DNA of 64,000 bases from Geosiphon pyriformis. Lineage: Eukaryota > Glomeromycota > Glomeromycetes > Archaeosporales > Geosiphonaceae. A model generated the notes under the pieces. It was given only the letters and a program-made list of their open reading frames with translations. It made no database searches and was not told where the DNA came from. Shown piece after piece: positions 10,952 through 59,432 of this stretch. Both the position numbers and the translations under genes were made by a program. The stretch's first letter is position 1. Each line of letters begins with the position of its first letter. Location: assembly GCA_016748015.1 (NCBI GenBank), contig JAAOMT010000772.1:416677-480676 (forward strand), read 5' to 3'.

Positions 10952-11377
10952 TTTGAGAGGTATTGGTACGGATCGAACCTTTATCAAAATCCCTCAGGCA
11001 ATCGATTCATCAATTAATACTAACGATCCGCTAACGAAAATAAATTACTCGAAGAGAAATTAAAGGCATTTGAAACCTCCTTTTGTACTTATAAATTCTT
11101 TTATTTAAAGAATTATCTTGAAATTTAATGATTCATTTTCACTTTTTAAAGTCTGATCTTATTTATATGATTTAAATTAAATGTTGTAATTTGATATATG
11201 CTCATACTGAAAATTATACTTTTAAAAAAACTCACCATTTCCTTCTTATAAAATAAAAATTTGAAGTAAACATTAAAAAATTGATAAATGAAAACTAAAA
11301 AATTTTTTTTTAATAGAACGTGTAATTTGTCAATTTATAGCTAATATTTATAAATTGTAAAACATCAAAAATAGGCA

Positions 11378-11812
11378 ATACTAATGCCCAGAAGAAGATC
11401 CCCCGAGTGCTATTGTCATCTCTATTCATAACAAGGTTACAATTCCGGCATTTTTATACCTCGGACCCTCCAATTCTTTGGACGTTACTACAGCAGCTAG
11501 AGGTATTGGAGTTATAAGCTTCATTCTGTACAATGACACAGATTGGCGAGCATTTTTCGCGTAATTTTTCTTATCATGTTAGATTGTCTTTTCGTGAATT
11601 ACATTTCGCCACATACATGCTACTACTTTATCAAGTCTTTTGCCTTCTTTTTACGTTTGGAGGTTGATTGTGTGAACTTATCTTTACGTGATATCAAATT
11701 GTTCATATAGGTGCAAAGACGAAAAATGCATTCAATATCATGTTCCCCAATTTTACCTACAGAGAATACCAGGTGAATGGTATACGAATGCGATAGTAAG
11801 TAACCTTGCCAT
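11378..11812 (-). pseudogene. degraded TnpB/Fanzor-type transposase (copy A)
   Basis: This is a remnant of the TnpB/Fanzor (OrfB, Zn-ribbon, RuvC-like) nuclease family, read on the minus strand across several frames. From high to low coordinate it shows RIRIPFTWYS where family members have a DPGxR...F..YS block, then GKIGEHDIECIFRLC followed by a Lys/Arg-rich helix (residues TSKRKKKAKDL), and finally a Zn-ribbon/RuvC-III block GGSEV.KCRNCN with NRDDNSTRGIF. The last block matches the family pattern GGS..Y.C..C......DRD.N..R.I. The RuvC-I Asp is replaced, the DRD motif reads NRD, and stops and frame changes break the frame. In known members the protein is an RNA-guided DNA nuclease. This copy cannot encode a full-length one. 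It is a diverged relative of the copies near 27.7 and 31.9 kb. Confidence 0.72.
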
Positions 11813-13189
11813 CACATGTGATCTTGTGTGGATTGGGCCATTTATTTTTTTTTCAAGGTGGTACAGTGTTATCTTTAAAAATAAAAAGAATAAAGATGGC
11901 ATAAAAATGAGATAAGTAATGATATAAATCAATTTTTTTAAAAAAAATGGAAAAAATTAATTATTTTCACCTTATGTCCATGTGCATATGAATAAAAGCA
12001 ATTCAAAGGTAACTTGAGCAGAAATTGTTATGATGTGATACAGTGCCTTACGGGATTGAGCCACGGTGCTGTCTCTGAGGTTGCCATTATTACCCAATGT
12101 GATTGATTGACTCTGCCTTTTTGCCTTTGACCTCCTCCAATATGCCTTCTCCCATTCTATAAAACTCGTGGTTCTCTTCGAAAATGCGATCTTTGACGGG
12201 CACAAACTCTTCCAGGATATTTTTGCCATCCACACAATCTTAATTTGCTGCATGCAGGGAAGCAGAGCCCCTCGCTAATAACGAAAACGCAGGAACAAAA
12301 CCCAAGGGAAAGGCGACAGCGCCAGTGACAAATTTCACAAGACGGAAGGCACGTTAATAGTCAAGATGTAACTCAAGGATCCTATTGAAGCGATGGATAG
12401 GGCTTAGCGAGATTTGCCTTAAATACCGTGGTAGGATGGAGGTAAAATTATTATGAAGCAAGATGGTATCACGGAAGGAATATGGTTAAAACCTACGACG
12501 TTTCAACAAAAAACGTCTTCTTTTTGGCGATGTCTCTCGAGTATCTGGGGTGAAAGAAAATTTTGCAGAGCCATCATCCCTCTTAAGAGGTTGCTTAGGC
12601 TCAGCCCCTGCCAAAATCACAGACGAAACGATTGATCAAGCATTGGTTGCTCAAAGAAAGTTATCAAAAACGTAATGCACAGCGACAAGGGTCATGAACA
12701 CATCCATATTTCTTTTTGATCATTCCAGTATGGTTTTAAACCCCTGGCGCTTGAAGTTTGACGCCAAAGGCCAATATTGCTGACGAGCTCATATGTCAAG
12801 AGTCGGGCGAGGTGGTGGTATCAACATTTTGAGAAGTTAGAGGAAAAAGGTGATGTATATATAATTTCGCGATTTTGAACCTAATAAGCAATTACTAAGC
12901 AACTGATTAATATATTTTCATCGGTATATTTTAATCACGCTGTTTCTGCTATATTCAGAGAAATGTCGCAATGTTGACGATATCTTTTTTCAGTATAAAG
13001 AATACTTTTACACCATTGATTTAGTGAAAAAACTTAATTTATTCATAAGTAATCATTGATTGTTTCCTCATTCTATAATGATCCAAAGGATTTTTTCTTG
13101 TAGGGCAACTAGCTTGAAATCCCTCTTATTTGTATTCGAGGTTTCCCCACCTATCAGGAGAACACTTTCTCAACACCATCCATAACAAA
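11813..13189. other. intergenic, with unassigned relic sequence
   Basis: There is no complete gene. Between 12000 and 12830 the GC content is nearer to coding DNA and there are open fragments without start codons. One is about 49 codons on the minus strand (12090-12239), hydrophilic and Glu/Lys-rich. Another is about 54 codons on the plus strand ending near 12672. I recognise neither. They may be exons or relics of a dead gene or transposon. A possible splice acceptor (ttcttgtag) ends near 13104, just before the Sel1 gene. Confidence 0.35.
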
Positions 13190-14005
13190 ATGTATGATAA
13201 AATGAAGGCAGCTATCGAAGAAGTGAAAAATTTTTTCATTGAACTACTTTTCCAATATGGGTCACTGAATCTAGCTTCCAAAAATATTTTCCAAAACAAT
13301 CTATCAAAAATGTTGGATAAACATCATATCGCTGAAAATGAATTGTTCAAATTTCTTCAAGAGCAGCGATCAGAGCCAGAGTCTAAAATATTGTTGGGAA
13401 TGCTTTATATTTTAGGAATCGGTACAAAGGTTAATCCAACTCTTGGTCGGGCACACTTGGAGGAGATTGCTGAAGAAAAACATCCTATCGGAATGTATTG
13501 TGCGGCTACTCAGCAAACTGTCTCATATTACGACAGAGATAAACAAAAAGAAGTTCTCAACTGGATAAAAAAATCAGCTGAAGCTGGATTTGCACCAGCT
13601 CAATCTCGATTAGCCGTATATTATTATGGACTATATGATTGGACTCAGTCACTCTCTTTAACTAAAGATTTTTCTCGAGCTTTTTATTGGCATGAAAGAG
13701 CTGCCAGACAAAAACATCCTCATTCCGCTATTGAACTAGCTGATGGGTATTCAAAGGGAACATTATTATGTAATGGGAAAAAAGACTTGCGCAGAGCATT
13801 TCTACTTTGGAGAATTGGAGCTAAAGGAATTAATTTTTGCATTTTTTATTGTGAAAAATCAATTGCTATTTGTTACAAGGAGGGTTTTGGGACCATGAAA
13901 GATATGCATCAGGCCTTTAGAATCTATCATAATGCGGTGAAAAAATTTCCAGAAACATTTGCTTCGTACAACACTGAAATTTTTCTTCACGATACTTTCA
14001 ATTAG
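13190..14005 (+). CDS. Sel1-repeat (SLR) protein
   Basis: This is a 271-residue open frame without introns, starting at the ATG at 13190. The same frame stays open back to 13130 without a Met, so an upstream exon is possible. Sel1-like repeats are visible: KILLGMLYILGIGT followed by an H-rich segment, then WIKKSAEAGFAPAQSRLAVYY, then AFYWHERAARQKHPHSAIELA, and a last one around AFLLWRIGAKG and CYKEGFGTMKD. The repeats carry the typical A..G...A...L.......G spacing, with DFSRAFYWHERAA before one of them. Sel1 repeats fold as helical solenoids and act as protein-protein adaptors, for example in kinase signalling or ER-associated degradation. No kinase or other catalytic domain is joined here. 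Such proteins are greatly expanded in arbuscular mycorrhizal fungi. The specific partner is unknown. Confidence 0.82.
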   Translation: MYDKMKAAIEEVKNFFIELLFQYGSLNLASKNIFQNNLSKMLDKHHIAENELFKFLQEQRSEPESKILLGMLYILGIGTKVNPTLGRAHLEEIAEEKHPIGMYCAATQQTVSYYDRDKQKEVLNWIKKSAEAGFAPAQSRLAVYYYGLYDWTQSLSLTKDFSRAFYWHERAARQKHPHSAIELADGYSKGTLLCNGKKDLRRAFLLWRIGAKGINFCIFYCEKSIAICYKEGFGTMKDMHQAFRIYHNAVKKFPETFASYNTEIFLHDTFN

Positions 14006-21328: not shown

Positions 21329-21699
21329 TTTTTTAAATTATATATAGAACAAGCCTTTAAAGTTTTCTTTTGAAAATTTAATTTATATTTGAAATCTGCT
21401 GTTTATACATTTTTTTACACAAGTTGGATCCTACCTAAAAGATTTTAAAATGCATACTGTGTAAAACTTGAAAGTATGTCACTCTCTATCCCAAAATTTA
21501 CAAAATTGTAATAATAACAGGTTTTTTCAATGCACCTGAAAATTTATAAAAATTCAGATTGATGAAACTGAGACAGTATCCTATGTATTGAGGATTGGAA
21601 ATTGGGATAACAGTATAGATTTGGAGAAAGAGAGGTTGATTTGGCTATTTATTCAGGAAACCTAAATTGTAATAATTAGGTGTAACAGATAAATTCCTT

Positions 21700-21918
<219 letters not shown>

Positions 21919-22795
21919 CCCACCTCCCACAACAGTAAAAACTCCAAATTGAATAGTAAAATTGATTTCGAGATTTTTATTTTTAAGAACTTCTCTTACC
22001 GTCGAAAATTTCCCCATGATCAGATTCTTTTTAAAATCACTATTTTGAAATTCTGCTTTAAAAATAAAATTTCTACTTTACTCTTTCAAAAAGAGCTATA
22101 AAACGCAATTTTTGATTTACTTTTTTGAAAATATTATTATTTTATTGCAACTTAAAGAAAAATACATTTTTTGAAATCACAATTCTTTTAAAACAAATTT
22201 AAAAAATTCATAAATTAAAATATTCTCTAATAGCTTTATGTATCATTTTTATTTGATTTTTTACTTTTCATCTGAACGGTCAAAGGGGAAATTGCTGCGT
22301 CATTAAACTTGAAAGAAATTTTTTTTTTCCAAATAAAACTCTAAAAAAAGTTATTCACCGAAACCCAATCAATCATCTTATCTGAAAATGCCCAACATTG
22401 AGAAAATTTATATGGCACACCCTCCGACCCTTTTCGCACTTTTTCTCTCTCTCTCTCTCTCTTTCTCTCTTTCTCTCTTTCTCTCTTTCTCTCTCTAAAT
22501 CTATCATTTTTTTCTTCTCCTCTTCCTCTTTTAACTTTTTCTCCTTTCTCATATTTTCTCTACTCATCCCTGGAAAGCTTTTCATTTGATCAAAAATCTT
22601 TTCCGATTTTTGCTTCACCATAAACCTTTTTCAAAAAATCCGAAATATCAATCTAATTCTTTGAAAAGTTTAGAGTAGACATTCGCAACTTTACTTGTGC
22701 AACCTGTTGTTGATTTCCAATTGGTCTAATCACATGGTTTTGTCAAAATAACTGCTCTCGACTTTGAAGATTTCTTCAATACTTCTTTAAACCCC

Positions 22796-26255: not shown

Positions 26256-27461
26256 CACTTCAGAAAGGTCGAAATCTGAGTGCCCATTTCTAAAAGTTAC
26301 GAATAAGGGAGTGTCAAAGAATTTTAGCACTGAATCTGGCATACCGCTCTTCGAAATTTGAAGATATTAATTTTAAATTAGCAAGATCTTTGAAAGTCCG
26401 AGTAATAAAAAAAGGGATCTGATGAAGCTCAAAAAAAAAAAAAAAGCCGAGGACTCTTTTCGAATGAAAGATCTTTAGATGGAAATGCTACTATAGATTT
26501 TCTAACTAGAGTACTATGAACAAAATAAAAAATTATTTTTCCTTTGTTTTGTGTGTATGCCCGACGTTAAAATGGTCAGCATTAGAATTAGAAATTCTTA
26601 AATTGAATGTTTTTTTAAAAGAGAGGGAATGAGAAGTCAAAATAATTTCTTACTGTTAACAAAGTTGTAAAAATACAAACCTTAAATCAAATATTTTGGG
26701 AAGATGGATTCATCGAAAAATCATTAAGTATCAGAAGACAAAATTTGAATATAATGTATACAAAGAATAATACTAAAATGTTGATAAAGTTCAATCCCAT
26801 GAACACCCATACCACCGAAATGTGTTCTTGTTTCAACTAGTTTTTTAGTTGGGATTTTTTTCAGACAATGGATTTCAGGAAATTTAAATATGTAGTTTTG
26901 TGTCAAACGGTGAATAGATCACAGACAGTAAACAGCGGCCTGTGCAGCTCGAAAAGATTGGTTATTAGTTCGCAGATCAAGTAAATCATTCTTAACAAAC
27001 CCGTCATTGAATGTGTTAAACTCTAACTCTATCATCACCTGCCTTTATTGGCTAGAGCCGTATGATTAAGTTCGATTAAAATTAAATGTTTGTGTTAAAA
27101 TTAGTATTTAGTTTTTAATCAAATATAAATATAAATATAAATATAAATATAAATTTTTTATTGAAAATAATTGTAATTTTGTAAAATTGTTTAGTTAGAA
27201 ATTATATAAAAAAAAATAAAATAAACATTAATGTAAATTATTATCTATTTGAATAATTATTTTTTAAAATTTCAAAAAATTTTTTCACATTTTTCACTAT
27301 ATTTTTATGTAAATTGTAAATTATAAAAATATATTTATTTATAACCAGTGTAATTAATCATCATATCGTTTACCTTATAAACATCAAACACACTAAAATA
27401 TGAAAAATTTAAATTTCAGAAACAATAAGTGGCCTTATTTACACAAATTTATACATTTTTT
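26256..27461. other. intergenic AT-rich spacer
   Basis: No gene seen. It contains short simple repeats such as (TAAATA)n near 27120-27150 and a slightly GC-richer patch at 26900-27070 without a recognisable frame. Confidence 0.6.
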
Positions 27462-27985
27462 GGGTCTATGAAACACAAATATAAGTGGAACTTTTACCCA
27501 TCATACACCAAAGGTGTGGGTAAAATAGGCTCAAACAATATTGGATCAATCGTTTGTTTTTACAACCTCGTTTTTAAAAAAATACAATTGTCCGCTCTAC
27601 TTTACAGATAAGAAATTCAGGGTCCGCAGACTAAAATCTACAAAAAAGCAATTCTATTTTTTACTCGCGAGTTTGATGCAATTGTCATTCTGCCATTTGA
27701 TGTATCACACATTGAGAATCGTAAAAGTGAAAAAAAAAGTAGAAAATGTTCTCTTGGGCATATTATCATTTCCCTCAACATCTGATTAGCAAAGCCGAGT
27801 TGTCATCCAAAATGAGGCCTATATACAAGTTTGTAGCTGGTAAAGTGCATCGAAGTGTACAAGTGCAGGAATTGCGGGACTGTAATGAAAACCCCATTTG
27901 GGGAGGGTCACGCAGGAAATAGTAGTCTTATTTGACAATCTTTAGTACTACCTATTATTGATGTGTTACAAGTTGTTTGTGTGTA
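27462..27985 (+). pseudogene. degraded TnpB/Fanzor-type transposase (copy B) with conserved 3' tail
   Basis: Plus-strand remnant of the same family as copies A and C. In order it shows TKGVGKIGSNNIGSIV (27508 on), then KIYKKAILFFTREFDAIVI with LPFDVSHIENR (the region usually reading HKK...L....F...ILP.F..S), then after a one-base frame change SWAYYHFPQHL (family pattern W.HY.FR..L), then LISKAELSSK, and a half Zn-ribbon CRNCGTVMK. At least two frameshifts and the lack of an intact RuvC-I DPG motif make it inactive as a protein. From 27890 it continues into a non-coding segment containing gcaggaaatagtagtctta (27912-27930). That segment is shared in inverted orientation with 31657-31675 and is therefore part of the mobile element. 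The left end is not resolved. Confidence 0.75.
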
Positions 27986-28211
27986 TTTACAATACACAAT
28001 TAAATGAGAGCTGCTAGTGTTTATAGCAAAGTCTATATTTTTATGAAATATAAATAATTACACTAGAGTATCATACAGAAAAATTAAATAAGTTTAATTT
28101 GAGCCGACCGGAACAATTTTCCAAGTTAGAGACTATTAACTTTATATCAATCCTCTATAATATAAATAAATACCAAAACCTGAATCCCATCCTACATAAA
28201 AAAATTTTTGA

Positions 28212-30537
28212 TTATTGAACAGTATATTGGGCGATAAAGTCCAATGTTTCTTCATCACGCATATATGTCAAATTCCATTTTCCTCGTTCATCCAACGTCG
28301 TCTCAATCGCAAACTTGATGCTGCCATCCGTCAAATTCTGTTCGACTTTTTTCATCATTTGTGTATCCTTACCAGGTGTGAACAAACAAAACTGGGGTAA
28401 GGTAGATTCTTCCTGATCAAAGATGACCAGTTCGAAAACTTGTTTTGAGTTGTATTTTAGGGTGGCATGAATTGGGTTTATGATTGTAAAGGAGAATGGT
28501 ACGGAGAAGGTAGTAACGAAGGGGCCCTGACGCGTTCCGCTACCCCGATTTCGGATTAAGAGTTGTGATGCTAGTGGGCCCTGTTGAATTATTTCCAAAA
28601 AATTTTATATTCATACGCAAGGTGAAAGATAATTTAGACAATTAAATAACTTCAAGTTTGAAAACGCACCTGATTTCCATTCAATAACACGAAAATATTC
28701 AATTTTCCCTCTCCCTTACTGGGAATCTCACAATGGAACCGATACAAACGGCCCCCACTTTTTCCATGGCCTCCAAGGCGTTGTATAAACACTGGTACCT
28801 GCTGCCCATTCCAAGCTAAATGCGCGTGCAACGCTTTACTCTCATCGGGATGCGTTCGTTCAATCTCGAATACCAATTTATCATGATCAACCTCAATCTC
28901 ATTGGGTATTTTGGTGATAAAGGAAAGCCCGGCGGTGAAATAAGGAGGTTTTACAAAAGGTAATGAGACAAATTGTGTTTTATTTAACGGTGGCTCGAGG
29001 TATTGTTCTTCTTCTTTGCGTGGCAAATGACTGTAAATGAATTTCGACGGAGTGACAAGGAAGTAAAAGGGATCGAATCGTTGAACAAATGATTGGCCTT
29101 CCACTACCCCAGCTCCCCATGTACTGTCAATTAAGAGGTATTCACCGTCGACACAAGTTCCGTTCCATGCATGTGCGAATTGAAAAGAATCAATATCTGC
29201 TCCCGGGGAGTACCCTGCTCCTTTGGCATGGCCACTAATTTTCCAGGTATCGAGCTTGGCTTCTTTTGCGAGGGCGTTAAAAAGTTCACCATATCCATCA
29301 CATACTGCCAATCTTTTGGACAGGACTTCACTTGCTTCCATATGATGAATTTTACCTATTACGAGGGAAAAATATAATTTAATAAAACATGCAACAAATA
29401 ATAATCAATTCCAAATATACTTTAATTTATTACCTGAAAATAATGCTTTAACATCGTATTCTATATTCTCGGCAATCCAAGTATAGATTGCGCGAAGTTT
29501 ATCAATGGTAATTGGGAAGGGAGAGGTAAGGTGATGCGATAATGTTACAATATCTTTTGTTTTTAAGGATGGGGTATTTCGCGCATGATGATCAACTTTT
29601 GTGAAATCCCGTTCTACAAAATCAAATAAAAAAGATAATTAATCAAAGAGAAAAATTGTTTAAGCGCATCCTACATAAATTCAAAATTAAATTTCAAGTT
29701 TCGCGATGAAACAATTTACCGTCTGAATTGAAATGCTTTACAAAATTTTTGGTGACGATTGGTGCACTTTGACTGTATGAAACATATCCAAAAATTAGAA
29801 ACCGTGTTATTATGAAATTTTAAAGGGAATAATATTTTTCTTCAAAAAAAAATCACCACGACTCCTACCTAACCGGATCCTGATCCTCGACCAAAGTCTG
29901 TTTCGCGTCATTCTTATGAGAATTTGTGGGAACATCATTTTTGTTCGTGTCATTCCTATTTAATTCTGACGTAAATTTCTGTTCTGTTGGCGGTTGCTGT
30001 TGGTGTAAAACATGATTTCCTCCTGACGTCGGATGAGAATGAGGTGATTCCTGCAGATATGTTGAGTCAACTTCTTCATGAGGGGTCGTCTGTAGATTAT
30101 CTTGGAATTCGGAAAGTGGTTCTTCGGTGGTATAAGTGATTACTTGTGTTTCAGTGTGACCGCTCTCGTCAGTGGTGGTGATTTTTTTGACATGGGTTAC
30201 CGTTACTTTTTTGTAAGGGAAAATGAAAATTTTTTTGGCCAATTAGATGGAAGTTGAAAATGTGATTGAGAATCGGAACCCTTTTATTCTTAGTTGAAAA
30301 AAAACCTCGCCTTTTATTTCAATGTGATGCAAATATAAACTAATTCAAAAATTCAAGCACTCAGAATTAATATTTTAACTCACCAGTCTCTTCCCCGTTA
30401 CCATTCGATGTTTTTTCATTATAATTATTATGACTTTTCACTATATGCGTGTCACTTTTATTTGATTCTTTAGGCTCTTTGTTCTTCTTTTTACGAAGGC
30501 TTAAAGGACGCTTTAATAATGACTTCCAATCTGGCAT
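28212..30537 (-). CDS. KY/Cyk3-type transglutaminase-like protein
   Basis: Six exons, in transcript order: 30537-30384, 30205-29869, 29772-29720, 29613-29434, 29355-28670 and 28580-28212, giving 592 residues with phases consistent throughout. The centre is a transglutaminase-like fold: LRAIYTWIAENIEYDV, then AVCDGYGELF (Cys260), FAHAWNG (His303) and IDSTWG (Asp318), an intact Cys-His-Asp triad. This matches the kyphoscoliosis-peptidase and Cyk3 group. Cyk3 proteins work at the fungal division septum, usually with a dead triad and an N-terminal SH3 domain. Here no SH3 is visible and the triad is complete. Residues 1-165 are polar and disordered, with a Lys/Arg-rich start (RKKKNKE). After the core come about 230 residues of beta-rich sequence typical of KY-like proteins. 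An enzymatic or a scaffold role cannot be separated from sequence alone. Confidence 0.88.
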
Positions 30538-31600
30538 GGTTAATCAAATAGAAGAAAGAGCTGGGATTTAGGAGCAAATAGTTTAGAGATATACAAAATT
30601 TATTTACTAAATACTAAAATCCTAATTCAATCGCTATTTGTTCGCTAAAAAGAAAAAGCGAGAAGGTACCACTAGTAGAAGTTTGCCCAACATATAATTT
30701 CAAACTTACACTTTGTTCCCGTAAGACGCGTGTATTTATACGAATAATCATTGTACTCTTGTACAATTGTGGAAACACCAAATACTTGCACGAACTAAAT
30801 TGAAAAAATTATCACATCGCATATATATTACTTGAAAGAGGTTTTCGACACAGTGATCCAAAACAATAGTTGCCGTTGTTTTTTGGTGTAAATCAAATAC
30901 ATACTGCTTTGGCATTGGTACAAAGAAGACCTACCAAATTAACTTTAAGATATCATGATTGTCTTCGTACATGACATCACTCTACCATTCATTATTTTTT
31001 TGATAGATCAGAAAACTACAAAGGCTTGACGGTGGCAATGTACCTGGGAAAGGAAATGAACGAAAACCCATGCTACATATTGATAAAAACTTAGTTGCAT
31101 ATGCGGATATTAGTTTTTATGCCGGCGGCATTTACCTGCATTTATAAATAAGAATGCTCAAACATTCCCACACCAATTGTATTGTAAATTTTACGTACGA
31201 ATGACCCATTTTTCAACAAAATGTTGAGAGATCTTCACCAAATCCGGAAAAGCTTATTTTATACGAGCGAAATTTATAACTTGCGAAATTCAAATATTTA
31301 GCCAAAATTGTTTCAAACTTTCCGAAAGTAGAATTTTATTAATTTCTCCATTCTCTTAAAAGATCCTAACACCCGAGCCTAAAAACACCAAAAAAGTAGA
31401 TCAATGGATCATTGATTTACTGCTCAACTTTGTTCCTGATCCGTCTCATTTTTTTCATGCGTTGTTTATTCCTACTATCCCCGATTTCTCAAGAGCATAT
31501 GTGAGAAAGGTTGTGGTGCTGCTTTTATCAAAAGCTCTGTTTATGGGTCTCAAGAGTTCAGCTTAATATTACATTTGACATACATATGAAATTGCTACAT
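30538..31600. other. intergenic spacer
   Basis: About 1 kb between the KY-type gene and the inverted-repeat element. No gene or RNA is recognised. The first 150 bp presumably hold the promoter of the minus-strand gene. Confidence 0.55.
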
Positions 31601-32620
31601 ATTGATGCGGATGGATTGTAACAAATCAATAATAGGTAGTACTAAAAATTACTAAGTAAGACTACTATTTCCTGCATGACCCTCAGTAGAGGATCAAAGG
31701 TCCCCATCAAGCAATGGTTCCGCTCCCCCGAGCCATTTTCGTCACAGCCCGCAATTCTGGCAGTTGTAAACTTGGGACCCTCCGATGCTCTTTATGTTGG
31801 ATGCATAGGCCTCATTTGGGCAACAACTCGGATCAGATGTTGACGGAAACGGTAGTATGCCTAGGAGAGCATTTTCCGATAGTTGCGTATTTTTCTTGCC
31901 TTATGATTCGTGATTTCTGACACCTCAAACGGCGGGATGAGATTTGGGTCAGACTCGCGAGTGAAGAACAAGATCGTCTTTCTGTGGATTTTATTCTGCA
32001 GATGCATAATCCTTCGTCGTATGCGCGAAACTTCTTTGTTGAGTCGCTGGGGCTTTGCGTTTCTTACGCTTTGAAGTAGAGAAGGTGAGTTTGAAATGAG
32101 GTCATCCATATACGAACAAGTTGTCCGATGTCACCAGAACCTATTTTACCACATCTTTGGTGGAATACCATATGAAGGATGCACGAATGCCAGGATAAAT
32201 AGAGACTGTATGATGGAGCTATCCGCTTGGGTTTCCCGGATTTGAGTTTATGTTTCGGGCAGGTTACTAATTAACCAAAAAATAAACACAATACGCAACA
32301 ATAAAAATGAGTGTCAGGATTGGCATAGGTGCGGTTTCTCACATGTGAAGAGATCATTGGGGAAAGGGAAAAAGGAATTGAATAAATTGTTGGGCTTAAA
32401 AGTCCATTCGTACAATTGTAAGTTTATCGTCAGGTGAAATAGGCCTATTGGTTATCGCTTAGTTTCGAAGTGTAAAGGCCATAGCACGCGTTATCCTTAT
32501 TATAAAAATAAGCTTTAAGTTAAAAGAATGTACAGAGATCAAATGGGAGCCTTGATCCTCTACCGAGGAATAGTCTTACTTAATACTACTATTGATGTGT
32601 TACAATCCATCCGGATATTC
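31601..32620 (-). mobile_element. ~1-kb inverted-repeat element carrying a TnpB/Fanzor remnant (copy C)
   Basis: The two ends are imperfect inverted repeats. The word ggatggattgtaacaaatc (31609-31627) pairs with gatgtgttacaatccatcc (32594-32612), an 18/19 match. Similarity then continues inward for about 100 bp, with gaps, through taagactac-type and gaggatcaa-type words on both sides. Between them the minus strand carries TnpB/Fanzor-family sequence. The left repeat overlaps the DNA just downstream of the transposase remnant. At roughly 1020 bp the element is short for a complete transposase plus ends, so internal loss is likely. I could not define a target-site duplication. Confidence 0.7.
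31690..32205 (-). pseudogene. degraded TnpB/Fanzor-type transposase (copy C coding remnant)
   Basis: From 32200 downward the frames read IYPGIRASFIWYSTKDVV (family pattern DPGxR.F..Y), then after a frameshift IGSGDIGQLVRIWM, then an 82-codon frame (32109-31861) with LNKEVSRIRRRIMHLQNKIH, RKTILFFTRE, LIPPFEVSEI and RKIRNYRKMLS. A stop follows, then AYYRFRQHLI, and finally GGSQVYNCQNCGL with a residual RN near the RuvC-III position. The order matches TnpB/Fanzor from RuvC-I to the Zn-ribbon. The RuvC-I Asp is Tyr here. Stops, frameshifts and the missing N-terminus mark it as dead. In living members this protein is guided by an RNA transcribed from the element's 3' end. Confidence 0.78.
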
Positions 32621-41508: not shown

Positions 41509-44500
41509 ATGTCCTGGACATCTCCTGTAAACACGCCCCCCCCTTACGGCCAACCGAGACCAGTATATGGGGTTAGTTTCTCAAACTAATTTCAAAGTCA
41601 AGAGATCGACAATTTTATTTTTTTTTATAAAATTCTTTTTTAGGCTCCCCCACAAAGACCATATCCAACGATCCCCCCTTACGGTAACCGACCACCTGCC
41701 CAACCTTACCCCACTACTCAACCTCCACCTTATATACCCCCTCCACAATCAGTAAGCACTGGGTTTTGTCATTCAAGAACTCTACTAAATTCAAATAATC
41801 ATATCTAATCCTTTTTTCCAGCCTGCTTCAGTTTGGACTGAGCATAGCTCACCTGATGGTCGGAAATATTATTACAATACTATCACAAAACTAAGTTCGT
41901 GGGACAAGCCCGATGAGTTAAAGACATCTGAAGAGGTGCCATGTGATAATAGAATTTCATTTACAACTGAACCTTTGATAAAATTGGACGATTTTAACGT
42001 ATATATTGAATAATAGAGGGCGCTTGGTTCTTGCCATTGGAAGGAATTCACGGCGAAAGATGGTCGCAAGTACTATCATAATTCAGTCACTAGTGAATCG
42101 AAATGGGATATGCCTCAAGAATATAAAGGTTATATTGCAATAATCCCTTATAAGCATTTCCAAATATACTAATCAAATTTGTCCTATAGAGTTCCTTGAA
42201 AGGCTTGAAGTAGAAAACAAGGCTTTTCAGTAAGTCATATACGTGATCTCATTATAGCGTGCCTCTTTTTCATCAATTCTTACAACACATTCTTTAGACA
42301 ACAGGAAGGATTAAGTCCCAGTAATGGGCCGTTAGCTTCGCCGAATCAACAGGATTTGGAAAAAGCGCGCCAACTTAGTGTTCCCGCAGTCGGCCAGACC
42401 AATGTGACACCAATGAATGCTAATATGAGATCCTCTGGAGTTGCGGGTCCTATAGGTGGCGCTAATATGCCCATCATACCACCTCGACCCGTGGAAGTAA
42501 AGCTTGAATTTGAGACCAAAGAAGAAGCGGAAATAGCCTTCCGGCAACTACTCAAAGAATCTGTAAGCATATTTTTTCATTTATTTATCTCTCTGCGTTT
42601 TACCTTATCATCGCTGATATATGTTGAAAATATTTTTTTAGGGGGTAAAGCCAGATTGGAGTTGGGAACAAACAATGAGAGCAATTATTACTAAGCCTAT
42701 GTATCGTGCCCTCAAAACACTGGCCGAGCGTAAGCAAGCATATCAAGACTACATCGATGATCTAAGAAGAACCGAGGAAGTCAGTTTGAAATTTATGCTA
42801 GTTCAACCATGTCTTTGTGCAATATCTCTAATAAGAAACTTTTTTCAGGAAGAGAGAAGGGGACGAATTACCAAGATGCGCCAAGATTTTATTTCTTTAC
42901 TCGAATCTCATCCCGAAGTAAACTCATCTACGCGATATAGGTAAATATTTTATAAAAACTTAGATTTTCAAAACATCTCAATCATCGAATTCAATAATTT
43001 GGTTAAACCTTAAATAGAAAGGTTTGCGATCTTTTTGGAGAGCATCCCGCTTTTCTTGCCATGGAAGACGATCGACAGAGAGAAGATATTTTTGGGGAGT
43101 ACGTATATGAATTACGTAAGCAAGAAAAGGTAATTCTAGAACAAGCCACAAAAAGCTGTGACTCGTTTTTCGTTTTATTTATACTGAGATAAGGAGAATT
43201 TGGTTTTTCTTTGAATAGGAAGCCGCGCGGCTGATGAGAAAGGAAAATATGGAAAAATTCTCCAAACTCCTAAGGTCTCTTCCTAGCATCACTATGAGAA
43301 CCCTTTGGAAGGATGCTCAAAACATCTACATGAATACCCCTGAATATCGAGAAGACCTTCATCTCCAAAAAATGGATATGTTAGATTTTTTAGCGGTTTT
43401 TGAAGAGCATATTAAGTATCTCGAAGAGCAAGATATTGCACGACAAAGACGAGCTGTGGAAGCCAAAAGAAGGCAGGAGCGAAAAAATAGAGACGCTTTC
43501 CGCTCTTTATTAGAAGAACTACGGAGTAAAGGAATTATTACTGCTAAATCAAGGTGGATGGACATATACTCGATGATTGCAACTGAAGAAAGTTATACAA
43601 ATATTCTTGGGCAACCAGGCTCCACTCCACTCGATTTATTTTGGGATATTGTTGAAGAACTTGACGAAATACTATACCAGCAACGTAAAATTGTAACAGA
43701 TTTTGTCAAGGTAAGGCATATATCTATTATACTTAGAAGTTAAATACTATGTTTTTATGAAACTTAATATCATTCTAAATCCACATAGTCGAGGAATATG
43801 CCGATTTCAGGAATTTCGTTTGAACAATTTCAAGGAAGCGTCATTTCTGATGAACGTTGCGCGATGGTGAGTGAAGTAAACATGAGGATCATTTTTGATC
43901 AGGTAAAAATTGATGAAATTCGGTCACAATATTTCAAGTGTTGATTGAAATTCAAACTAAACGATATTTTGATCTAATTAAGTTGCTAAAGAAGCAAGAA
44001 AAAAAGCAACGTCGAAAAATGGATGCATTCAAGTCAATCTTGAAGCATTTTGAGATGATGATTACCCTCGAGGCTACCTGGGAACAGGTGCGAATATTGC
44101 TCGAATCAATTCGCTAGTTTAGTCTTTTTGCATATAAAAATTATTCCCAAACAGCAACGTCTACTTCGCTAAGGCTTGTGAGCATACTAGTGAACCTGGT
44201 TTGCTTTTATTATCCTTGCTGAAGTTTATTGAAAATAGCTGGTCTTTATTTCGCTCTACGTGGTTGGATTTTTCGTTTCATTTTTAAATAGGTTCGACCT
44301 GTCCTGGAAAAAACCGAGGAATTTCACGCAATAGACAATGAAGAGGCACGAATCGAAGTCTTTGATCGGTTCATGGAACGCTTAAAGGTATATCCATTTT
44401 TGGTCTGATACAAAATTCTCGTTTATATTAATTGATTTTTTGTAGGAAAAACGAATAAAAAGAGAGCATGAAGAGAGTGAGGAGGAATTATTGAGAGATG

Positions 44501-49684: not shown

Positions 49685-50545
49685 TTAATAATTTGCTGAG
49701 AAATAGTTCCTTGCGGAAATATAACTCTCCAAATTGCCCACATCAATACGTCCTTCTACTCTGAAACCATAAAAGGTCTCGTGACATTCGTTTATTACCC
49801 AAGCGATAAATTTTCCTGTCGCATCACGTTCTTCTAAAGCTTCGCCTTTATCCTTTGATTGCTCTAGAAAATCTCGAATTAATCTAACCACCTTACTGCG
49901 CAAGAAATAGAAACAAGGGCAAGCGTATCGAGAACTAGTATTTTGAGCCGATGGTTTTTCTAAGAAATACTGGATCTTTAACAAAACTTTCCCTTCCTTT
50001 GCTTGTTTTTCATCATCCTTTAAAGCTAATATTCCTACGTTACTCATTTCATCGTCTGATACGCAATAGGTGGTGACTAAAGATGCCTCCTGAAAATTCT
50101 CTATAAACATTCGCAAAACAGATTCAAACGAAAAGCTTTTTAAAAACAAAGTATCCCCACCAATTATCAGCAGCTCCTCATTAGTCCATCCAAAATGTTC
50201 TACCGCAAATGCAATATCACCTACGGCACCGATACGAGTCTCATTTGTATCCGTACCATCAGTGATGACATTTGTTGAGGGTATGCCATTTTGCGTGGCC
50301 CATGTAAGGAACTTATCGTAGAACCTATTGTTAGTTACCACGTGTACCAAGCTTGAAATTTCAATTTTCACGTCACGAAAAATGTTTAGCCAGTGGGTAA
50401 TAAGAGGATAGTTGTTTGGACCAAGTGGGAGCAACGCTTTTGGAATATTCAACAAGTGGGCATATCCACGGTTTTGGTCTGCAATAATATCTCTTTGAAG
50501 GCGTGTGCCATACCCCGCGGCGAGAATTAGAATTTTTAAGGGCAT
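49685..50545 (-). CDS. sugar-phosphate nucleotidyltransferase-like protein
   Basis: A single-exon gene of 286 residues. The N-terminal LILAAGYGTRL (6-16) is the nucleotide-binding signature of the NTP_transferase family, whose members join NTP and a sugar 1-phosphate. Further family-like pieces are KALLPLG, the IGGDTLFL segment carrying the metal-binding-type Asp, SNVGILAL, FLEKPSAQ, and near the end EGRIDVGNLESYISA. The protein ends there, so the left-handed beta-helix of eukaryotic GDP-mannose pyrophosphorylase is absent. The size resembles bacterial RmlA-type enzymes. The substrate cannot be told from sequence. Lack of introns is unusual beside its intron-rich neighbours. Confidence 0.85.
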   Translation of the reverse strand: MPLKILILAAGYGTRLQRDIIADQNRGYAHLLNIPKALLPLGPNNYPLITHWLNIFRDVKIEISSLVHVVTNNRFYDKFLTWATQNGIPSTNVITDGTDTNETRIGAVGDIAFAVEHFGWTNEELLIIGGDTLFLKSFSFESVLRMFIENFQEASLVTTYCVSDDEMSNVGILALKDDEKQAKEGKVLLKIQYFLEKPSAQNTSSRYACPCFYFLRSKVVRLIRDFLEQSKDKGEALEERDATGKFIAWVINECHETFYGFRVEGRIDVGNLESYISARNYFSANY

Positions 50546-55230: not shown

Positions 55231-56596
55231 TCACACATATAATTGGAGCATGCTGGCCTTTTTCACTTTTGAGTTACAACTTGGGCACCATTTTTTCGTC
55301 CCAGACAAAAAATGTTGTGCGCATACTGCACAAATTATATGCGAACAACTAAATGTCCAAATTCCTTCCCCTAGTAGGTTATCACATTCAGCACAGATTA
55401 AAATCATCGATTCATTTAGATTGGTTGCATGACCCGGTGAAAGTGGTTTGTTTGAAGTAGAAGTATTTCTGCGAACTGGAGGTGCCGAGCGAATCTCAAT
55501 TTCATCATTGTTATAGGTGTTAGAATTTGTATTGCTATTCCTGTTGTGGTTATTGTTGCTGTTGTTGTTGCTATTGTTATTATGGCTATTATTTGTAATA
55601 TGGCTATTGTTGAAAAAGTTATTGGTGCTACGGTTTCCACTTGATTCATTGTTCGTTGAACCTGAAAAATTGAAATCGTAAAGAGGATTATCTGTTAAAT
55701 TATCGGCCGTAACATCAGCCTGGTTATCGTGTGGATTAAAAATCGGGGTATCGTAAAGTAATTCGTTGGCTGTGAATGTTACACGAGACGTGTTATATGG
55801 ATGAAAAGCAGAGTTGTGCGGTCGTTGGAGTACATGACCACTTAATAAAGCGTTCAAAATACCTATAAACAAATGATTCACAGTAATCTAGCCTCAAAAA
55901 TCAATTTTTTAAAATAATAATTTGCCAAAAATTCAAGTTCGTCCCCCTTGAAAAACTCCAGTCAAGGTTAGGAATCTTATTGAAAGAAAGTGAGATTAAT
56001 TGCTTACCTGAAACAAAACGGCGGTCACGAATAGGACCAACTCCACTAGTTATACCACTAAAACCAGAATTAAGAAAGTTCGTCGATGACGATGTACTAC
56101 CACTACCATTATCTCTACGCCTATTAAAATCATTAGTGCTGCTGCTGCTACTGGAATGATCATTGAAGAGCACTATCGGTGATTGTACTCTTGCCAGCGC
56201 CACAATATCATTACCAATGTCTTCATTAAACATGTTGGTTCTTATTGTTGACGAGGATGAAGACGATGACCCTCCACTCTGATCTGGTACAACCTGCCCG
56301 GTAGCCTGTCCTATAATTATGGTATTTGTGTTACAATGATTAAGCAAGCTTTCTTGTGTCCGAGAAGAAGAGATAGTACTCATGACATCTGTGTCTTCGT
56401 CACTGTCGATTACAACTATCTCGATTGGTGTTGGAGCTATAGCGTTCCGGCGACGTGGTAATCTCGATATTCGAGAGGGTGAGGCGGGAGTTATTGCCCC
56501 TATCCTTCGTCTTCTTATACGATTACTATGTACAGTCGTCTGTGTGAGGTCAATTGGGGATTGGGGACTTGTTATTAATGTATGTGTGGCAGACAT
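55231..56596 (-). CDS. RING-finger E3 ligase with SUMO-interaction motifs (STUbL-like)
   Basis: Two exons, 56596-56008 and 55862-55231, giving 406 residues. The C-terminal RING is a complete C3HC4: Cys353, Cys356, Cys369, His371, Cys374, Cys377, Cys389 and Cys392, followed by KASMLQLYV at the end. The N-terminus has IDLT (15-18) and IEIVVIDSDED (58-68), both fitting SUMO-interaction motifs, and DEIEIRS lies further in. Between are Arg-rich (RIRRRRI), Ser-rich and Asn-rich disordered stretches. SIMs at the front plus a C-terminal RING is the layout of SUMO-targeted ubiquitin ligases (RNF4; fungal Slx5/Slx8, Rfp1/2), which act in genome stability. The assignment to that class is inference from architecture; RING identity is certain. 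Confidence 0.82.
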
Positions 56597-57591: not shown

Positions 57592-59432
57592 CTAAACTGA
57601 TCCTGAAATACCCAATTTGTCCAGCGATCGAATACCCTCCTCCTCCCATTCCTGCTTGGTTATCCACCAAGATTCCCGATCTTTCATAATATTAGCTAAG
57701 ACTGCACCACCCAGAAACACCATGTGTTTACGGCGAGGAGGATCTTCAATACGAATTTTTAATTTCTAAGGTTATTGATATAAAAGAGAATGGTATCAAA
57801 TTAGAGAAATTTTGAGACTTATGTTAGATCATCAATTGCTCCAATAATTTGTACAAACCTGTAATCTTGAATTATCACCATTTGCCACCCTTTCCAAATA
57901 TAATTGCTTGAGCTCTTTCTCAAGACGACTTGGCAACCCTGGATACATTGATGACCCCCCAGATAGCACAATATGACGGTATAATTCAGACCTAACGTCG
58001 AGCGCGGCATCTTGAATTGCCTCAAAAAGCATCTCTTTTCATAACAATATGAATGAATGAATGGGTTGGGTAAGCACCAATAAGAATGTAATAAAAATGA
58101 ATTAATATCGATATTTACCAGCAACGCCATCCTGTTCATTATCAATTAAATGAGGTTGGAACATGCACTCTGGAGCTTCAAATCGCTCCGAGCCAACTTT
58201 TATGACACGTCCATCAGGAAGCTTTGGGAGCGCAATAAGATTGCATCAAATAAATTTTAGATTTGATCATATATTACAAAACGAAAATAGAATTAAAGCT
58301 ACCATGCTTCAATAGTTTTTTAAATACCGTATAATTTTCGACTAGCACTGTAGTCTCATTTGCCAGCTTTTGGTCTAGCTGAAGATCATAACTAATAGAC
58401 AAGGTTGCATAAGATGAGGCGTTAACCTAGCATTCAAAAGTTGGAGGTACAATTAACTCCTTACCGACAATGAGTTTGTACCTTACATAACAAAGTTTTT
58501 CTTTAATTTGGCGCACTGTTTCAAAATCTGCAGTACGGTTGAAAGCGTATCCCCTAAGCAAGAGCAATTTTATAAGGTATCGTGTTACATCACGACCAGC
58601 AACATCCAGCCGACGAGTCTGATGGGGCAGGGCAAACCCATCGTATATTGGAACGATATGGGTTACACCATCACCAGAATCTACAACAACACCAGTGAGG
58701 AGCCCTTGAAAACCCAAAACCAAGAAAGACCCTAAGAATTTGCAAAAAAAGCAGAATTGATCATTCTAATATCATTATATCCAACCTTGCGCATAAAGTG
58801 TCAACACAGCCTGAATTGATACGTAGACTCCTTGAAACCCATACTCTTCAAACATTGTGCGCACCATCTCTCGTCGATTGACCAGTGGATTCATGGGTGG
58901 CTCCGTCAAAAGCACTTTACATTCACGAGGGTCAACCTTCAACTTTTCATAAAAGGTGTAATTCCACAAATGTTTCATATCTTCCCACTTTTTTATGATT
59001 CCATTCTCCATTGGGTAAGACATTTGAAGGATCGAACGAACTTCGGCAGCCTCATCTCCAACCATAATATCTTTCACCTCTACATTTCCAACCTTCTCTT
59101 CAGCTCGAAGAATAGGGCGACCAACCACGGAAGGGAAGACGTGTTGAGGGAAATTTGAGCCGGCATATCCGACTTTAACGAACTAAGTTGAAAAATTAAA
59201 CTTTATAAGCCAAGAGTACCAAATACCAAGAATAAAAATCTATATCGCATTTTGTTTTCTCTGGTAAAATAGGTGTGCTGATAAGTAAGGTGTCTTTGAC
59301 CATATTCGAAAATTCCCATAGGAACGATACATATTCTTTAATAGGCGTTTGGAAGTAGTAAATCATTCGTATCTGTTGAGAAAAACTTACACCTGTTCCA
59401 TTATCAACTACAAGAGTCCTTGAGGCATCCAT
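57592..59432 (-). CDS. ARP2: actin-related protein 2 (Arp2/3 complex)
   Basis: Seven exons: 59432-59391, 59182-58786, 58704-58482, 58391-58328, 58221-58119, 58034-57859 and 57765-57592, giving 392 residues, the usual Arp2 length. The actin fold motifs are present: [50 protein letters not shown]. Arp2-specific features are the [20 protein letters not shown] and [13 protein letters not shown] blocks in the last exon. Arp2 is the nucleating actin-like subunit of the Arp2/3 complex that builds branched filaments at endocytic patches. The ATP-site residues appear intact. Confidence 0.97.

Follow-up and report, generated by a model that had tools for sequence, protein, structure and literature searches.

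The window analysed here is the whole of a 64,000-nucleotide stretch of Geosiphon pyriformis DNA (GenBank assembly GCA_016748015.1, contig JAAOMT010000772.1, positions 416,677 to 480,676 of the forward strand), and it carries host genes in six places. The domains recognized in these are Sel1 repeat, KY-like, FF, nucleotidyl transferase, RING finger (below the cut-off) and Arp2; the Sel1, FF-domain and Arp2 genes agree with a fungus without demonstrating one, and the AM1 primer pattern found no match. A simple repeat, the translation of which has a run of unknown letters, lies at 21676-22017. At 11.4, 27.5 and 31.6-32.3 kb the same series of protein blocks, broken by frame changes, can be read from the translations. 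A preliminary description of this DNA had noted these ordered blocks, ascribed them to TnpB/Fanzor-type RNA-guided nucleases of IS607 affinity and taken the three places to be separate old insertions. The parts that were mapped are the following.

13130-14005, 28652-29341, 43234-43743, 49685-50545, 55231-55881 and 58775-59128: host genes
11347-11432, minus strand: right end of the 11.4-kb element, degenerate (right-end model, 18.8 bits, E = 0.085)
11350-12052, minus strand: decayed Fanzor gene body with zinc ribbon and DRD-like end, NRDDNSTRG (PF07282; nucleotide profile, E = 2.4e-66; RuvC-I piece)
12045-12716, plus strand: inverted middle segment with the remaining TnpA region and the next part of the element (TnpA-region profile at 12045-12324, E = 9.8e-39; 13-copy nucleotide profile at 12090-12716, E = 1.9e-46)
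12716-12808, minus strand: fragment of the region of TnpA, the IS607 serine recombinase, in element orientation (TnpA-region profile, E = 5.5e-6)
12847-12924, minus strand: left end of the 11.4-kb element, CCGATGAAAA..AATCAGTTGCTTAGTAAT, inner border approximate
27412-27971, plus strand: decayed 3' remnant of a Fanzor gene, its 5' part unmatched (nucleotide profile, E = 2.3e-93; translations)
27903-27979, plus strand: right end with the same hairpin region as at 31.6 kb and the final 8 bases diverged (right-end model, 68.3 bits; a member of the model)
31608-31684, minus strand: right end of the 31.6-kb element, with the conserved hairpin AATAGTAG..CTATTATT and the terminus ...ACAATCCATCCG at 31608 (model R1, 92.6 bits, its own sequence being among the model's 34; fold)
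31609-32256, minus strand: decayed 3' half of a Fanzor gene (nucleotide profile, E = 9.9e-162; RuvC-I piece; translations)
32401-32511, minus strand: additional, upstream fragment of a Fanzor gene (nucleotide profile, E = 2.3e-12)
32554-32613, plus strand: second right-end copy, facing outward (right-end model, 38.5 bits, E = 4e-6)

The three places described earlier stand, with revised borders. The mapped right ends put the limit of the 27.5-kb remnant at 27979 and that of the 31.6-kb remnant at 31608; 32554-32613 is a second, outward-facing right end; and the 11.4-kb element spans 11347 to about 12924, with its middle segment inverted. That segment runs opposite to both of its flanks, and its borders abut the remaining halves of the element.

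The nucleotide profile was built from 13 Fanzor copies of the same genome, all of them outside the window. It matched all three places, with E-values from 1e-161 to 2e-66, and gave zero matches at E ≤ 10 in five block-shuffled windows and in the reversed window. Since 12 of the 13 copies had originally been retrieved with the 31.6-kb copy as query, the E-value of that copy is partly circular. Independent of this query is the match to PF07282, the TnpB/Cas12f C4 zinc ribbon, which lies between RuvC-II and RuvC-III, at 11400-11558 on the minus strand (E = 4.1e-4 in the six-frame search and 3.4e-6 in a Pfam scan of pieces). A RuvC-I piece of 121 residues, taken from the copy L002, matched 11605-11763 (E = 1.4e-9) and 31981-32274 (E = 4e-5), both on the minus strand. 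PF07282, the RuvC-I matches and the nucleotide profile thus agree on the TnpB/Fanzor identity proposed earlier. The blocks of the 31.6-kb copy, in differing frames, read YPG (not DPG), GKIG..DI, PPFEVS, NEAY and GGSQVYNCQNC. The expectation that family profiles would find these places held for the zinc ribbon at 11.4 kb and failed at 27.5 and 31.6 kb; pieces of the latter two copies alone fell below Pfam significance, so that a Pfam scan of the window reveals one of its three copies. Pfam scans of a single window can overlook most such relics.

The right end was defined by the common stop point of similarity between copies at 23 aligned loci. After TTACAA, where the query ends, TCCATCCG follows in L045, L055, L056, L058 and the 31.6-kb copy, and a near-TCCATCCG sequence in L039, L053, L054 and L057; it is absent in L043 and in the 27.5- and 11.4-kb copies, and the other 11 of the 23 loci match this continuation weakly or not at all. 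A genome scan with the terminal 24-mer gave 76 matches with at most three mismatches, and the reversed pattern gave none in the same genome. The final bases are C (62/66), C (54/66) and G (54/66), followed from +1 by an AT-rich background; 66 of the 76 end rows were used, two second ends and eight rows with more than three mismatches being left out, and part of the conservation seen within the 24-mer stems from selecting the ends by that pattern.

A conserved stem is present in the right end. Its 8 bp are paired in 94.1% of the cells among 34 right ends from three subfamilies, which were chosen for a largely intact stem region, a choice that favours the stem; a 14-pair structure is paired in 89.1%, compared to 27.5-63.9% in slid registers. 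Column shuffles equalled the observed pairing in 71 of 500 cases and the covariation score in 37 of 500. The covariation is not clearly above shuffles, and proof of an omega RNA by this means was therefore dropped. The fold z of eight single right ends ranged from -0.22 to -2.44, and Rfam gave no match in the window at gathering scores. Because such RNAs are known at that position, the right end probably encodes the 3' part of an omega RNA. A second hairpin after the gene reads TGGTC/GACCA, TGATT/GATCA and TGATC/GGTCA across the three subfamilies, with one double-change position; 106 of its 165 cells are paired, many of its 33 rows being misanchored.

The left end differs from the right end. 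It is CCGATGAAAAGATTTGC-like and was found 17 times by alignment of upstream regions and a genome scan. In seven paired copies the length from left end to right end is 1247-1928 bases. CCGATG begins 6 of the 16 fetched left ends and that of the 11.4-kb window copy, and CCG, present at both element ends in many copies, may be a shared core. The elements have no long inverted repeat. Target duplications of 2-10 bp did not rise above permutation in the seven paired copies, which are old, so that a very short or heavily decayed duplication could escape. Upstream of the perfect right ends of L055, L056 and L058 there is no inverted right-end copy within about 6 kb; the best inverted candidates have 9 or 10 mismatches in 24, the same as shuffles. 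Empty sites, sought by shared flanks, gave no convincing match.

The ends also hold evidence that counts against an IS607 element. They are slightly alike when one is inverted, with CCGATG/CGGATG at the tips and ATCAATAA deeper in. Outward-facing right ends, moreover, lie at both sides of the window copy (31608-32613), of L059:368-3280 and of C328:51824-57625, an arrangement left unexplained by a plain IS607 element; in the window copy and L059 the second right end carries a piece of the gene's 3' end. The four same-contig pairs of 24-mers less than 15 kb apart (on C210, C27, C328 and C387, judged by eye) all face outward. With its apparently inverted ends, the stretch 31608-32613 suggested, together with L059, terminal inverted repeats as the general plan, an idea rejected on the evidence of L055, L056 and L058. 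A short palindromic repeat of another kind, GTACAGTAGGCACCAAAAGTAACGCC..., resembling a miniature mariner-type element, is present at L059:112-197, and a related stretch flanks the right end of L109.

A model of the IS607 TnpA, NF033518, matches 30 places in the genome, the best at 5.4e-21. All 30 are below the curated cut-off, which again counts against IS607. Nineteen of the 30 have a same-strand partner no more than 2.5 kb away (Fanzor coding, a right end or a left end; Fanzor coding in 16), and wherever TnpA is paired with Fanzor coding or a right end, 29 of 29 times, it is the upstream member; none of the 30 has a partner on the opposite strand within 2.5 kb, and 11 have no partner within that distance. 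This linkage to Fanzor coding upholds the IS607 affinity claimed in the preliminary description. A TnpA-region profile was made from nine copies, of which L041 and L058 hold NF033518 matches inside the stretch used. It hits the 11.4-kb window element in both its minus-strand and its inverted part, and nothing in the five shuffled windows or the reversed one. Five TnpA-region pieces from L045, L054 and L055 were submitted to Pfam; the only match was to Resolvase, from one piece at E = 0.078 and short of the cut-off, the other four having none. The upstream coding was at one time considered the N-terminal region of the Fanzor, a candidate dropped after a relative from Poribacteria showed a resolvase there. 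For the same reason the label Fanzor1 was given up, and NF033518 then found TnpA in this genome.

Fanzors are defined, in the available part of PMC10711439 (Yoon et al., 2023), by DPG together with a glutamate six residues ahead of the zinc finger, with 120-160 residues permitted between the two in the published expression. DPG is present at RuvC-I in L001, L002 and L059; L003 has EPG and the 31.6-kb window copy YPG. The arrangement E-x6-CxxC-..-CxxC-..-D was found in six loci of this genome (L001, L003, L004, L007, L100 and L136), and the 11.4-kb window copy has kept this alternative glutamate and lost the first zinc-ribbon cysteine. In L001, DPG and glutamate lie in one frame, if stops are read through, with 167 residues between them by hand count; L002 has both, in two frames. 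The NCBIfam model guided_TnpB scores L003 at 1.8e-19 and 70.3 bits (cut-off 100, not reached). PF01385 has zero matches in the genome. When a C-terminal profile of the Geosiphon copies was compared with solved structures, the mimivirus TnpB-like L79 came first (2e-22), followed by bacterial TnpB-type and Cas12 structures; RuvC-I pieces compared with the PDB found no TnpB or Fanzor. Mimivirus L79 counts as a Fanzor2.

The family is an old graveyard of well over 100 dead copies. In the 124.7-Mb, 406-contig assembly PF07282 exceeds its cut-off in 67 places (the 11.4-kb copy and 66 others), and the RuvC-I piece of L002 reaches E ≤ 1e-3 in 148 matches, which include the 11.4- and 31.6-kb window copies. 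When coding matches no more than 2.5 kb apart on one strand were grouped, 172 places resulted, spread over many contigs; this is an order of magnitude, since clusters may split one element or merge two and the searches score the best candidates alone. These clusters were drawn from 67 of 67 PF07282 rows, 126 of 148 RuvC-I rows and 38 of 63 rows of a search with the 31.6-kb copy, after removal of same-place repeats, short matches and right-end-only matches. Adding the rows for right ends (76), left ends (17) and TnpA (30) gives 223 places, from a base that counted two right-end-only rows as coding. Mean identity over the 77-base right end is 0.77-0.81 within and 0.71-0.76 between the three subfamilies, which were assigned by us, and pairwise likeness spans 50-99%. 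The view that the window copies are separate old insertions of a multi-copy family is upheld by these matches across the genome. The preliminary description had also supposed that the genome contains, or contained, active members. Past activity is a fair inference from copy number; present activity is unsupported, the longest listed open reading frame with a Fanzor match being 251 residues with two stops inside the match. Copies with DPG and the zinc-finger glutamate, which it had proposed to seek elsewhere in the assembly, were found; an intact copy was not seen among the scored candidates, a set from which an intron-bearing or lower-ranked copy might escape.

Eight loci came out when bacterial and archaeal genomes were scanned with a seven-row alignment; this single scan used one 10-residue pattern, too thin to deny closer cyanobacterial relatives. 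The best was in a Candidatus Poribacteria bin (L138; JAJEDB010000046.1:231-3641), 46% identical in its best segment, query residues 23-161. As judged by sequence, it is the closest prokaryotic relative found, bacterial and outside the cyanobacteria. Like the Geosiphon copies it combines an IS607 TnpA (Resolvase 2.8e-16, MerR just below cut-off) with a Fanzor-like gene, which carries HTH_OrfB, DPG, the alternative glutamate and DRDLNGARGIF and is overlapped by TnpA in another frame. It differs in belonging to a bacterial bin, in having the gene split over two frames and in missing the zinc-ribbon cysteines. Behind the gene the translation reads as a phytanoyl-CoA-dioxygenase-like protein. No viral relatives appeared in the scan run.

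In the available text on eukaryotic elements, Fanzor2 is reported solely in elements of IS607 type, which lack inverted ends and target duplications, and Fanzor1 is carried by other transposons (Bao and Jurka, 2013; PMC3627910). The Geosiphon elements resemble the former in DPG and glutamate, in a serine recombinase within the same element, in the lack of target duplication or long inverted ends and in mimivirus L79 as closest solved structure (PMC3627910; PMC10711439). They differ from the known Fanzor2 elements in having right ends at both sides in some copies, and in the well over 100 decayed copies that one genome contains; in the available part of the table, yeasts are the fungal hosts of Fanzor2, with one family each. 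Multi-copy Fanzor elements in fungi are also represented by SPu-1 of Spizellomyces and the Fanzor1 elements of Mucor and Rhizopus; SPu-1, however, has inverted ends and a TA duplication, and in the text available Fanzor1 is without a reported serine recombinase (PMC3627910). Part of PMC10711439 names cyanobacteria as the bacterial relatives of Fanzors and also notes Fanzor elements with copy numbers in the hundreds. Fanzor2 in IS607 elements of eukaryotes is a known kind. New, as far as a limited literature search extends, are the family itself, its abundance, the mapping of its ends and the existence of a close relative among bacteria other than cyanobacteria; the search, thin on subscription journals, found no paper on IS607 in Rhizophagus or Fanzor in Mucoromycota, and on Fanzor in mycorrhizal fungi or Rhizophagus irregularis it found a review of gene transfer in plants.

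Taken together, the three places are very probably dead copies of an IS607-type element with the order left end, TnpA, Fanzor (probably a Fanzor2) and right end, the last probably encoding the 3' part of an omega RNA. The nuclease is Fanzor2-like as judged from the gene it accompanies, the ends and the closest solved relative. It is unlikely that it is instead a Fanzor1 in a cut-and-paste (DDE) transposon with inverted ends, comparable to SPu-1 or the MuDR-like elements of Mucor and Rhizopus. The outward right ends of 31608-32613 and L059 do resemble terminal inverted repeats, the element tips have their slight inverted likeness, and the C-terminal NGARGIFLRAL stretch is one that we take to resemble Fanzor1. 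However, the perfect right ends of L055, L056 and L058 have no inverted partner, the distinct left end recurs 17 times, target duplication was undetected in seven pairs and a serine recombinase lies upstream; 1.25-1.93 kb is, moreover, short for a Fanzor1 of 600-700 amino acids, and more so with a recombinase added.

Still less probable is prokaryotic TnpB/IS607 DNA brought in by contamination or recent bacterial transfer, for which the nearest prokaryotic relative, an IS607 element in the Poribacteria bin at 46% identity, could be cited. Against it are the diverged coding matches, which form 172 clusters spread over many contigs, and the position of the window copies among ordinary eukaryotic genes; in a 13-row tree with prokaryotic rows the Geosiphon rows cluster apart from the Poribacteria relative, weakly (67/70). 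Chance open frames, or an unrelated transposase, can be given almost no credence: two of the three window copies have no Pfam match alone, but the profile E-values come with empty controls and PF07282, NF033518 and the PDB profile match independently.

By analogy with known families, the TnpA of such an IS607 element would excise it as a circle, which would then recombine into a new site at a short core, all or part of CCG, without target duplication. A guide RNA would run through the right end into flanking DNA, and the Fanzor guided by it would cut the emptied site, the repair of which would restore the element. More tentatively, an IS607 Fanzor2 lineage may have grown to well over 100 nuclear copies in this fungus, giving rise also to derivatives that carry a right end on either side, a proposal to which we give somewhat less than even weight. 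If it is true, the genome is a fossil record of how a transposon of bacterial type was amplified in a eukaryote with an RNA-guided nuclease as the driver. A eukaryotic genome filled with IS607-type Fanzors, their ends and recombinase mapped, offers many fossil target sites, the DNA beside every right end presumably being a past guide, and is a test bed for the question of whether the nuclease helped the copies to multiply. Fanzors are in development as genome editors, and their route from bacteria to eukaryotes is debated.

The genome also has a second, less decayed Fanzor family of about five copies (L001, L003, L136, L137 and L004). It reads PPFN (PLFN in L137) where many main-family copies read PPFE, and the N is an AAT codon in L001, L003, L136 and L137, the four copies with the site. 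A loss of nuclease activity through this change was considered and rejected, because the alignment of L003 with Cas12m4a places the first P of PPFN opposite the E of VENFN, which we take to be the usual catalytic glutamate; the E of the main family is another one, three residues past the first P of PPF. Loss of the usual TnpB glutamate belongs to the Fanzor fingerprint and may have occurred here. L001, L003 and L136, moreover, retain the alternative glutamate, which is replaced by K in L137. Among the TnpA matches, C310:450158-450535 and C397:2589-2966 share identical score, model range and stops, and are either a recent duplication or one locus assembled twice.
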